In this document: one piece after another, positions 19,414 through 36,770 of the stretch
Numbering within the stretch: position 1 is the stretch's first letter
Layout of the letters: the number at the start of each line of letters is the position of its first letter
Source of the DNA: Phycisphaerae bacterium
Lineage (GTDB): Bacteria; Planctomycetota; Phycisphaerae; UBA1845; UTPLA1
DNA length: 39,911 nucleotides
Reading direction: 5' to 3'
Assembly (NCBI GenBank): GCA_030432035.1
Contig: JAUIHO010000016.1
Span: forward strand, 1-39,911
The notes under the pieces: generated by a model
Seen by the model: only the letters and a program-made list of their open reading frames with translations
Told to the model about the DNA's origin: nothing
Databases searched by the model: none
Made by a program: the position numbers and the translations under genes

Positions 19414-19938
19414 ATGGCAGACGAACCCAAACAACCGGAAGCTGAAGCAAGCCCACCGCCCAAACCCGGCAAAGCCAAGACCTTTGGCATCTTTGGCGGG
19501 ATTATGGTGGTGGAAGGGCTGGCGATCTTTTTCGCCATGAAGGCGTTCGCGCCCGAGCCCGACCCGACGATGGGCATTACCCCCGAGTTGAATCAGACGA
19601 CGCAACCCGGTGGCAACACGGCCGAGTTGGAACTGGCACGCGTGCGCGTGCAGAACACCAGCGGCGCTCGCACGATTTTGTATAGCGTGACGGCCAACAT
19701 CGTGGTGTCAAAAGATCGCGAGATCGATTTGCAGGCGTTTCTCGATGGCCATCGGGCAACGATTAACGATGTAATGAGCCGCATCCTGCGTGGTGCGGAA
19801 GAGAAACACCTAAACGAACCCGGCCTCGAAACAATTAAGCGGCTGATTCGATTTGAGATGAACAAGCTGCTCGGCAACGAGACGGATATCGAGCGGGTGT
19901 TGATCTCAGAGTTTACGCCGTTGCCGACAGGGTTTTAG
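19414..19938 (+). CDS. fliL: Flagellar stator-associated protein FliL
   Basis: FliL is a single-pass inner-membrane protein that rings the stator units. The 174 residues have a Pro/Lys-rich cytoplasmic start, a membrane helix (about 24-44) with a buried Glu34, and a periplasmic SPFH-like domain. That domain ends in the family pattern LKRLIRFEMNKLLGNETDIERVLISEF-like (about 145-170). The Shine-Dalgarno is poor. Since motA/motB are not in the window, its partner stator must be encoded elsewhere. Confidence 0.9.
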   Translation: MADEPKQPEAEASPPPKPGKAKTFGIFGGIMVVEGLAIFFAMKAFAPEPDPTMGITPELNQTTQPGGNTAELELARVRVQNTSGARTILYSVTANIVVSKDREIDLQAFLDGHRATINDVMSRILRGAEEKHLNEPGLETIKRLIRFEMNKLLGNETDIERVLISEFTPLPTGF

Positions 19939-19952
19939 CGCGACGCGCACGG

Positions 19953-19974
19953 GTAGGGTCCGCTGTGCGGACCA
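19953..19974 (+). repeat. Palindromic repeat P2, copy 1
   Basis: GTAG is followed by GGTCCGC-TGT-GCGGACC and A. It lies in the fliL-fliN gap. Confidence 0.85.
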
Positions 19975-20039
19975 GTTTCTCGCGCGAACACTTGAACTTT
20001 GGTGCCTTCATCCGAACTGGGTGAGGAGACGAATGAATC

Positions 20040-20066
20040 ACCGGTTGCAAACCGGTGCCACAGCGC
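20040..20066 (+). repeat. Palindromic repeat P1, copy 3
   Basis: ACCGGTT-GCA-AACCGGT with tail GCCACAGCGC. It lies in the fliL-fliN gap. Confidence 0.85.
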
Positions 20067-20073
20067 AACGCAG

Positions 20074-20102
20074 GTCCCCCACCCCCTCTGGGGGTGGGGG
20101 AC
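20074..20102 (+). repeat. Palindromic repeat P3, copy 1 (13-bp perfect hairpin)
   Basis: Arms GTCCCCCACCCCC and GGGGGTGGGGGAC close a TCT loop. This is one of the strongest hairpins in the window and lies inside the fliL-fliN transcription unit. The second copy (25050-25076) has one mismatch. Confidence 0.85.
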
Positions 20103-20144
20103 AAACGCTAGGTAAGCGAAGTTACTAACGATAGCGAAACGAAC

Positions 20145-20894
20145 TTGACCGATACGCCGAACAACCCGCCTGAAGAAAACCCTGCTGGTGGTGACGACTT
20201 TGCAGGGTTTTCGCAAGACGACATCGATGCCGCGTTGGCGGCAGCCGAAGGCGCGAATACTTCGGACGCGTCCGGCGATGCTGATAAGCCCGCTCCAACA
20301 GCCGAAGGCGCGAGCGATGCCGAAGCTGCCGGTGGCGACGATATCCCCGCGCCGTCGCAGGCGGATATCGATGCGGCATTCGCGGCGGCGGAATCCGGCG
20401 GCGGGGACGAAGCAGCCGACGACTCCGCAGCCACCGCGACCGTAAACGAAGACGGTTCGCCGAAGCTCGATTCGCAGGGGCGCCCCTTCGATGATGCGGC
20501 GGCGGCGATGGAAGCGGCGATTGCAGAAGAAAAGGCGGCGGCCGAAGCAGCAGCCGCAGCGATCCCACCGAACGCTCAACGATTGGAATTACCTGACTTC
20601 GCCGCAGAAGAAGACGACAGCGACGGTCAGGACATCGGCCTGCTTAACGATGTAAAGCTCGATGTCAAAATCGAATTGGGCCGGGCCAATATCTACATTG
20701 ATGAAGTGTTGAAGCTCAACAAGGGGTCGGTCGTCGAACTCGACAAGCTTGCCGGTGACCCGGTGGACGTGATTGTAAACGACCGACTGGTGGCGCGCGG
20801 CGAAGTGTTGGTGTTGAACGACAACTTCTGCGTGCGCATCAGCGAAATTCTGACCGGCCACGAATCCGAAATGGCTTCCAAGGCCGGCTCGTAA
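20145..20894 (+). CDS. fliN: Flagellar motor switch protein FliN with FliM-like N-terminal motifs
   Basis: FliN forms the lower C-ring. The C-terminal SpoA domain (about 163-240) is clear: [23 protein letters not shown] and later [18 protein letters not shown]. The 249 residues are about twice the enteric length. The extra N-terminal part is acidic and Ala-rich and holds two SQ-x-x-IDA motifs: [15 protein letters not shown] (22-36) and [15 protein letters not shown] (70-84). These resemble the LSQDEIDALL segment at the start of FliM and FliY, where phospho-CheY binds. The TTG start is forced: an in-frame stop lies at 20109 and no ATG or GTG comes before the first motif. No fliM precedes it. 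Confidence 0.9.
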
Positions 20895-20904
20895 TGCATT
20901 CGAC

Positions 20905-21744
20905 ATGAAACGCATCGCAAACGATGGCAACACGATTTCCCTTACGGTTTGCAAGACCGAGGGCCGATGCACGCGGCGGACGAGTCGAATCGTTCGAAGC
21001 CTCGTGTTTGTCGTTGCTTTTGTGGTGATCGTCAGTTCGACGGTTGGACGGTCATATGCAGACGATTCGCCAGTGCGCACGAATAGTGGTGTCGCGATTC
21101 AGCAGAAGGCCCCCGTTGAACCCAAGGCGGAAAGCGATGCGTTCATCATTCGGCGACCTTCGGATCAAGTGGGTGAAAGCGCTGCTGGTGTAAAGAGCGA
21201 GCGCGAAACCGGCGGCATACCCGGTTTGGGCCGTGCCGATGCGGCGTCGATGGCGTGGCCGTTGCTCGTCGTGTTGGGGTTGATCTTTCTCGCGGCGTTG
21301 GCGGTGCGGAAGTTTATGCCACGCGGTATGCGAGCCAGCGGTGGCAGTGCCATCAACATCCTGGCTCGACAGCACTTATCGAGCAAGCAAAGTCTTTGCC
21401 TGGTGCAGGTAGGGCGCCGCGTTGTGCTGGTCGGTGTTACCGGCGAACAGATGAGTGCATTGAGCGAGATCACTGATCGTGAAGAGCTCGCGGACCTGAC
21501 CGTCAAATTGGCGCGCAGCGCGCCGTCATCGTTTTCAGCAACGCTTGAAAAATTGGGCGGTGCGGAAGATGACGCCGCTGATGATGAGCCCGAAATGGAA
21601 TTGCCGCGTCGCAGCGGTTTGACGAATGCAGCGCGCGGGCGACAGACAAAAGCCGCAGAGCCATCAAACGGTGCGACCGATCAACGGGTGCGCGATTTGG
21701 TGAGTCGCATTCGCGCCTTGTCTGTCGGTTCGAGCGACGGCTAA
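20905..21744 (+). CDS. fliO: Flagellar export assembly factor FliO
   Basis: FliO helps assemble the FliP ring of the export gate. The 279 residues have an N-terminal hydrophobic segment (about 28-46) ending in SYADDS, which could be a signal peptide. A periplasmic linker and a second membrane helix follow (about 113-132), then a cytoplasmic FliO domain (INILARQHLSSKQSLCLVQVGRRVVLVGV, in pieces, about 147-176). The tail is basic and disordered. It is 10 bases behind fliN and ahead of fliP, the normal order. Confidence 0.88.
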   Translation: MKRIANDGNTISLTVCKTEGRCTRRTSRIVRSLVFVVAFVVIVSSTVGRSYADDSPVRTNSGVAIQQKAPVEPKAESDAFIIRRPSDQVGESAAGVKSERETGGIPGLGRADAASMAWPLLVVLGLIFLAALAVRKFMPRGMRASGGSAINILARQHLSSKQSLCLVQVGRRVVLVGVTGEQMSALSEITDREELADLTVKLARSAPSSFSATLEKLGGAEDDAADDEPEMELPRRSGLTNAARGRQTKAAEPSNGATDQRVRDLVSRIRALSVGSSDG

Positions 21745-21778: not shown

Positions 21779-22633
21779 ATGTTTGGCACATATCAGCGGC
21801 GGAGCCGCTGGGTCGCCATCTTGGTTCTCGCTGGTGCGGCACTGTTCGGCAGTGCCGACGTCGTTATTGCGCAAACCGATTCCGTTAGTCCTACCGCCGG
21901 CTTGACCGACGCGGGCGAGATCAATCCGCTCGGTATTCCCGACGCATCTGCATTGTTGCCCGCCGCCGAGTCGCGCGAAGGCGTAAGCGCGTCGCTGCGC
22001 ATCCTCGTTCTGCTCACGGTTCTATCCTTAGCGCCGTCAATCTTAATCATGATGACCAGTTTCACGCGGATACTGGTTGTTTTGTCGTTGTTGCGTCAGG
22101 CAATCGGTACGCAGCAATTACCCCCGGCGCAAGTGCTGACGGGGTTGTCCCTGATCATGACGATGCTCGTGATGGCGCCGACGTGGGCGGCGATGAAACG
22201 CGACGCTGTCGACCCGTACCTCGACGGCAAGATCGGGCAAGAAGCGGCCTTCGAGGCCGGCGTGGCACCGTTGCGAGACTTCATGGTTAAGCAAATCGCC
22301 AATTCCGAGAACGAAGAATACATCTATCTGTTTGTTGAATACGCACGACGCGCCGAGATTCCAGCGGGTCAAACGTTGACGCCGGAAGAGGTGAATCTCT
22401 CCGAGTTGATTCCGGCATTCGTGCTGAGTGAGTTAAAGACGGCATTCGTGATGGGTTTTCGTATCTACCTGCCGTTCCTCGTGATCGACATGGTGATCGC
22501 GTCGATTCTGATCAGCATGGGCATGATGATGTTGCCGCCCGTGCTGATCTCCTTGCCGTTTAAGTTGATGTTGTTTGTATTGGCCGATGGTTGGGGCATG
22601 GTGATCGGCGCGCTGTTGAACAGTTTTGTCTGA
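21779..22633 (+). CDS. fliP: Flagellar export gate protein FliP
   Basis: FliP forms the five-fold core of the export gate with FliQ and FliR. The 284 residues begin with a cleavable signal peptide (about 1-31, ending VVIAQ). The highly conserved core follows (SILIMMTSFTRILVVLSLLR, about 86-105), then LTGLSLIMTMLVMAPTW and the ending LPFKLMLFVLADGW. An AAAGGAG site precedes the ATG. Confidence 0.96.
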   Translation: MFGTYQRRSRWVAILVLAGAALFGSADVVIAQTDSVSPTAGLTDAGEINPLGIPDASALLPAAESREGVSASLRILVLLTVLSLAPSILIMMTSFTRILVVLSLLRQAIGTQQLPPAQVLTGLSLIMTMLVMAPTWAAMKRDAVDPYLDGKIGQEAAFEAGVAPLRDFMVKQIANSENEEYIYLFVEYARRAEIPAGQTLTPEEVNLSELIPAFVLSELKTAFVMGFRIYLPFLVIDMVIASILISMGMMMLPPVLISLPFKLMLFVLADGWGMVIGALLNSFV

Positions 22634-24973: not shown

Positions 24974-25004
24974 AATCACCGGTTACAAACCGGTGCCACA
25001 GCGC
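24974..25004 (+). repeat. Palindromic repeat P1, copy 4
   Basis: ACCGGTT-ACA-AACCGGT with tail GCCACAGCGC. The 31 bases are identical to 25094-25124, exactly 120 bases downstream. Confidence 0.85.
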
Positions 25005-25011
25005 GAGAGCC

Positions 25012-25034
25012 CGTAGGGTCCGCACTGCGGACCA
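25012..25034 (+). repeat. Palindromic repeat P2, copy 5
   Basis: GGTCCGC-ACT-GCGGACC in the flhB-flhA gap. Confidence 0.85.
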
Positions 25035-25049
25035 ACCTGGCGATGGGTG

Positions 25050-25076
25050 CCCCACTCCCCTCTGGGGGTGGGGGAC
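25050..25076 (+). repeat. Palindromic repeat P3, copy 2
   Basis: Arms around CCCCACTCCCC and GGGGGTGGGG close the same TCT loop as copy 1, with one mismatch in the stem. Confidence 0.75.
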
Positions 25077-25093
25077 TAACGAACTAACGAACG

Positions 25094-25124
25094 AATCACC
25101 GGTTACAAACCGGTGCCACAGCGC
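25094..25124 (+). repeat. Palindromic repeat P1, copy 5
   Basis: Same as copy 4. It ends five bases before the hairpin that carries the flhA Shine-Dalgarno. Confidence 0.85.
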
Positions 25125-25129
25125 AGCTA

Positions 25130-36560: not shown

Positions 36561-36675
36561 GGGTTAGGTCCGAGGTTGCGGTTCAAGTAACGGCAATAAT
36601 TCTCATGAGTCTTTGGTCTGGCTCAACATCAACAAGCAACTGATGTTTGCAAGGCTCATACAGGTTGCGAAGAAC

Positions 36676-36702
36676 ACCGGTTGCAAACCGGTGCCACAGC
36701 GC
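36676..36702 (+). repeat. Palindromic repeat P1, copy 6
   Basis: ACCGGTT-GCA-AACCGGT with tail GCCACAGCGC, 116 bases upstream of the GlmU-like start. It keeps the + orientation although both flanking genes are on the minus strand. Confidence 0.85.
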
Positions 36703-36770
36703 AGAACCGTGCTAAAGCACGCCGGTTTGTTTCGGCATGCCGTGAATGAGCATACGTTGAATGTCGCGTA

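Follow-up and report, generated by a model that had tools for sequence, protein, structure and literature searches.

The long FliN protein that a Phycisphaerae-type planctomycete encodes among its flagellar genes is probably an ordinary C-ring FliN with a disordered N-terminal tail, the putative CheY-P docking segments of which come in addition to FliM. The whole stretch of DNA that was analysed, referred to as the window, comprises 39,911 nucleotides. The features relevant here are the following.

19414..19938, plus strand: fliL (Pfam FliL, E 1e-4, slightly below the cut-off, and position in the cluster)
19939..20144, no strand: gap between fliL and fliN, 206 bp, non-coding, with dispersed palindromic repeats
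20145..20894, plus strand: long form of fliN, 249 aa, TTG start (TIGR02480, 99.1 bits against a cut-off of 84.05; PF01052)
20208..20252, plus strand: docking-type motif 1, FliN residues 22-36 (sequence, predicted helix)
20352..20396, plus strand: docking-type motif 2, FliN residues 70-84 (sequence, predicted helix)
20463..20555, plus strand: conserved GRPFD segment, about residues 107-137 (alignment of relatives, predicted helix, tracks CheW)
20643..20852, plus strand: SpoA (FliMN_C) domain of FliN, residues 167-236 (PF01052, E 2e-22)
20905..21744, plus strand: fliO (Pfam FliO, E 2e-14)

The protein was identified as FliN both by its score above the TIGR02480 cut-off and by the setting of its gene in a flagellar cluster with fliO and fliP; the FliP reading frame at 21779-22633 also served as the query with which FliP was gathered from relatives. 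SpoA was the sole domain match, and a CheC-like middle domain (PF02154) was not found in the window FliN. The solved chains nearest to the SpoA domain are T. maritima FliN (1o6a and 1yab) and 8umd (FliN), and the closest named record, 96% identical, is the FliN of the metagenome-assembled genome Planctomycetaceae bacterium ECT2AJA-110-A (CP030884.1). With about 1.8 times the length of E. coli FliN the protein is indeed close to twice the usual size, as a preliminary description made from the sequence had stated. The TTG is the sole start codon upstream of motif 1.

The same description had noticed two FliM/FliY-like motifs ahead of the SpoA domain, and both are present with the core SQxDIDAA. 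A search with the pattern [SNDTAGPE]Q.[EDNQ][IVLM][DNE].[ALMVISTF][LFIMA] across all six frames of the window (open frames of at least 60 aa) matched only these two segments. In an AlphaFold2 monomer prediction based on 38 aligned FliNs (mean pLDDT 67, pTM 0.30), helices were predicted on motif 1 (residues 24-37; pLDDT 84 for the block of residues 21-30), on motif 2 (residues 72-84; pLDDT 85 for residues 71-80) and on the GRPFD segment (residues 117-137). The linkers mostly had pLDDT values below 60 and the SpoA strands spanned residues 174-235. Each motif is thus predicted to be an isolated helix amid a low-confidence linker, and the window FliN accordingly has what characterizes a docking motif, namely an S/D-Q-x-E/D-I/V-D-A-x-L helix within a disordered region. 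Comparison with the close relative G002, in which fliN has 92% DNA identity, showed six codon differences within the motifs, all six synonymous and none changing an amino acid, whereas the linkers of the two proteins do differ in amino acids.

Across the order, the long FliN carries between zero and six motif copies. The N-termini of many relatives have two to six well-conserved copies and not single degenerate ones, which bears out the duplication proposed earlier. We collected 104 motifs from long FliN proteins of the order. All have Q at position 2, which, like D/E/N/Q at position 4, was imposed by the search pattern itself; S/D occurs at position 1 in 91%, D/E at position 4 in 100%, I/L/V at position 5 in 100%, D at position 6 in 94% and A at position 7 in 93%. 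The resulting consensus is S/D-Q-x-D/E-I-D-A-A/L-L/M, compared with D-Q-x-E-V/I-D-A-L-L for FliM and, mostly, S/T/D-Q-x-D/E-I-D-A-L/V-L for a second, short FliN of the same order. Half of the motifs in long FliN have Ala at the position of the first Leu of 'ALL' in FliM, and this exchange may weaken CheY binding. In several relatives motif 1 lies no more than about 20 residues from the start of FliN, as it does in FliM (L014, MSEADKPLSQEDIDAAL; L015, MADDGVLSQDDINAAL). The most extreme array has six motifs (L094 and L356). In L356 the six-motif FliN is encoded in part by DNA tandem repeats of 78 and 87 nt that match at 84-87%, and these repeats indicate that motif copies arise through recent tandem duplication. 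Segments such as ASIDEMLRAAREAV (L093) are possibly degenerate copies.

In other orders of the same class, motifs on FliN are nearly absent (one weak match in 59 genomes). Many members of two families from other orders (f10 and f13) combine CheA with a long FliN tail that has no strict motif. Elsewhere in the phylum, Pirellulales-like families have two or three related segments, e.g. GQDEIEELL, GQNEIEALL and DPNDIEFLL, and the cultured Blastopirellula marina DSM 3645 (L101) has two or three related FliN motifs; in additional families FliN is short, about 125 aa, and has no such segments. The array is a variant of a known docking element that recurs in the phylum. The open literature searched, with most subscription journals outside its scope, contained no earlier description of a FliN with repeated CheY-docking motifs.

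The idea that the array is associated with chemotaxis genes came from 41 genomes (this one and 40 relatives) with CheA as marker, and it was then tested across the whole order with CheW as marker. CheW was chosen because the CheA search misses genomes that have CheW (G003, G025, G029, G180 and G194); two of these, G180 and G194, have motifs and no CheA match, yet CheW is present, weakly in G180. The final set consisted of 69 genomes of the order with a completeness of at least 90%. As it includes most of the first set, it is an extension and not a fully independent test. At least one motif in long FliN was found in 47 of 53 genomes with CheW versus 4 of 16 without (Fisher 2.5e-6), and at least two motifs in 31/53 versus 0/16 (Fisher 1.8e-5). 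With 20,000 permutations within families p reached its floor of 5e-5, and a tree of FliN-SpoA and FliP yielded phylogenetically independent contrasts with r 0.48 (p 3e-5). Seven independent sister pairs, too few to reach significance, went about four times in the expected direction and about zero times in the opposite one. Genomes without chemotaxis genes have a shorter FliN tail overall; hence the motifs may go with the tail and need not be selected singly. A second conserved tail element, LDSxGRPFDxxAAAMAAAIAEE, lies between the motif array and the SpoA domain. It is confined to FliN proteins with at least one motif (36/51, versus 0/18 without a motif) and was present in 35 of 53 genomes with CheW and in 1 of 16 without. 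The link between array and chemotaxis is therefore indirect, and statistically it is clear. It is this association that suggests CheY-P as the ligand for the array of long FliN. Against docking of CheY-P stands the observation that other orders of the class with CheA are almost devoid of FliN motifs (38 genomes, one weak match), which indicates that the array is optional.

The motif of FliM behaves otherwise. FliM was found in 13 relatives without CheW, and in every one it retains its motif, with DQ degraded to DP in three; for the most part, short FliN likewise retains its motif in such relatives. This indicates that the motif type does not serve CheA-fed CheY alone and that the segment has another use in FliM; in non-chemotactic relatives this would be either another CheY-like ligand or a structural role. 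For the same reason, motif identity alone carries less force. The FliM docking segment was also seen conserved where neither CheA nor CheW was found in G009, G010, G013, G016, G027, G031, G036 and others.

The retention of these motifs without CheA or CheW makes a non-chemotactic ligand likely for FliM and, mostly, for short FliN, and it lends some weight to a different reading of the FliN tail, namely that its motifs dock CheY-like proteins different from CheA-phosphorylated CheY, e.g. Cle-type proteins bound to c-di-GMP, and that the tail functions in the control of surface behaviour or the life cycle and not in chemotaxis. In Caulobacter, Cle proteins bind the same segment of FliM, and an Ile-Asp change in this segment leads to loss of CleD density from the ring (PMC7534056). 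However, the array of long FliN is down to zero or one copy in all 16 genomes without CheW, as a chemotaxis-derived ligand predicts, and we regard a Cle-type ligand as rather unlikely.

Alternatively, the segments could be structural or assembly contacts within the C-ring or with the export apparatus (FliM, FliH, FliO) that merely look like CheY sites. The persistence of FliM's own motif without chemotaxis genes would fit such contacts, as would the additional GRPFD helix beside the motifs and the finding that the SpoA domain of Salmonella/E. coli FliN binds FliH (PMC6700473). Many long FliN proteins of the class, however, are without a motif and still occur in flagellar genomes, and joint loss with CheA/CheW is not predicted by a role in assembly. 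A role as structural contacts appears unlikely to us.

The linker of the window FliN has a high content of A, D and E, and look-alikes might have arisen from such low-complexity composition. When this linker was shuffled, one match appeared in 0.6% of 20,000 shuffles and two never did; among 30,000 shuffles of linkers from the order, 0.5% contained one motif and none contained two or more. As both the Q and the I-D core are moreover kept across families despite their rarity in the linker, an explanation by composition is highly improbable, and a chance origin of the motifs was ruled out by the shuffles.

It had finally been proposed that fliM is missing and that the FliN tail takes over signal binding in its place. 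The first statement holds for the cluster in the window, where no fliM stands between fliL and fliN, but not for the genome. A PF02154 search of the same assembly revealed one clear FliM of 362 aa on contig C87 (E 2.6e-66; TIGR01397, 319 bits versus a cut-off of 220) that carries a docking segment of its own, DQSEVDALL (MADILDQSEVDALLNAV, downstream of a likely internal Met). Hence FliN does not replace FliM. Of the 41 genomes searched, 38 have the gene, and two of the three without a match are 75% and 67% complete. In G002, the chromosome of which is a single contig, long fliN lies at about 1.263 Mb, fliM at about 1.369 Mb and short fliN at about 0.966 Mb. As all three are unlinked on one contig, the unlinked arrangement is not a binning artefact. 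With FliM on another contig here, on the same chromosome as fliN in G002 and in 38/41 genomes, substitution of FliN for FliM is virtually untenable. That a gene is absent from a cluster does not indicate that the protein is absent. The third SpoA protein of the genome is the short FliN of 156 aa on contig C46, which has one N-terminal docking-type motif; three SpoA matches were obtained in 37 of the 41 genomes. Short fliN (C46, 16.7-18.2 kb, L148) is located away from the main flagellar cluster, and almost every relative in the order has it.

While the signal-binding role suggested for the long FliN thus fell as a substitute for FliM, it stood as a role beside FliM, supported indirectly by the identity of the motifs, their predicted helices and their occurrence together with chemotaxis genes. 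The FliM segment LSQxEIDALL is known to bind CheY-P and is disordered until it becomes structured upon binding (PMC6700473). The N-terminus of FliM/FliY binds CheY-P with high affinity and supplies it to the FliM core, and in known motors CheY-P is contacted by both FliM-N and FliN-C (PMC6700473; PMC9126983). The tail of the long FliN bears multiple short segments of the FliM/FliY 'LSQxEIDALL' type that are predicted to form helices, and CheY-P most likely docks at each of them. With n motifs, a FliN would then provide n extra sites per FliN subunit, beside one per FliM and one per short FliN; these would raise the local concentration of CheY-P and the avidity at the ring, and CheY-P would pass from the tail to FliM-M and FliN-C, the parts that carry out switching. 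For the long FliN, we infer that it binds CheY-P, that it does so multivalently and that this affects switching.

The receiver side is encoded in this genome by a CheB-CheY-CheD-CheC-CheA block. Its CheY (L216:5282-5662) is close to that of T. maritima, and the closest solved chains include 4iga, the complex of T. maritima CheY with the FliM N-terminus (Ahn 2013, cited in PMC7534056). A CheC-like protein on contig C98 (L216:6146-7345, minus strand) was considered as a divergent FliM and rejected; it is a fused tandem CheC/CheX-type CheY-P phosphatase of 399 aa, the gene of which adjoins cheA, cheD, cheY and cheB.

It has long been asked how occupancy by CheY-P produces an ultrasensitive switch; the classical motor has one N-terminal docking site per FliM. 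There are about three FliN per FliM, and a classical ring has about 34 CheY-P docking sites. Tentatively, we propose that the C-ring described here possesses a multivalent layer for CheY-P capture, in which tails of two to six motifs would supply several-fold more sites; tandem duplication might adjust the copy number, and the motifs would disappear together with chemotaxis. If this is true, switch sensitivity could evolve via the number of repeats in the FliN tail. The natural series from zero to six motifs in chemotactic and non-chemotactic relatives would allow a direct test of the number of docking sites.

The long FliN resembles FliN proteins in general (TIGR02480/PF01052) in its SpoA domain, its place before fliO/fliP and the absence of any other domain. 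The N-terminal region of Salmonella/E. coli FliN is also disordered and has been described as dispensable (PMC6700473). Compared with E. coli FliN, the long FliN has about 110 more residues, and it is distinguished by repeated SQxDIDAAL segments together with an additional conserved helix. The FliY proteins of Bacillus and Thermotoga likewise have a SpoA domain of the FliN type and, at the N-terminus, a segment of the EIDALL type that binds CheY (PMC9126983; PMC8809382); of such segments the window FliN has two copies by sequence. In contrast to FliY, however, it has several motifs, with no CheC-like phosphatase domain separating them from SpoA, and is accompanied by a separate second FliN. 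The FliY model (NF005995) gave 111 bits with the window FliN against a cut-off of 218, matching only profile positions 251-373, and no CheC Pfam match was obtained in this protein. The core S/D-Q-x-D/E-I/V-D-A-x-L is shared with the N-terminal segment of FliM (LSQxEIDALL), whereas the position on FliN, up to six repeats, the frequent Ala for the first Leu of 'ALL' and a variable distance to the folded domain set the array apart. As in the C-rings of Campylobacter and Helicobacter (FliM, FliN and FliY), the genome encodes FliM and two further SpoA proteins, but here both are FliN-like and both have docking-type motifs.

The gap between fliL and fliN was confirmed to be 206 bp of non-coding DNA with palindromic repeats, in agreement with the preliminary description, and includes a perfect 13-nt inverted repeat (20074-20102). 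The PF02154 search of this assembly gave no FliM match in the gap, and a relic of fliM was ruled out, the content being dispersed repeats. Used as a DNA query in one search, the gap had 53 matches within its own genome, mostly to gap bases 97-130 (nt 20035-20068). The dispersed palindromic repeat is about 30 nt long (around ACCGGTTGCAAACCGGTGCCAC), resembles REP elements, lies in the window at 20035-20068, 24974-25125 and 36675-36703 and recurs throughout the genome.
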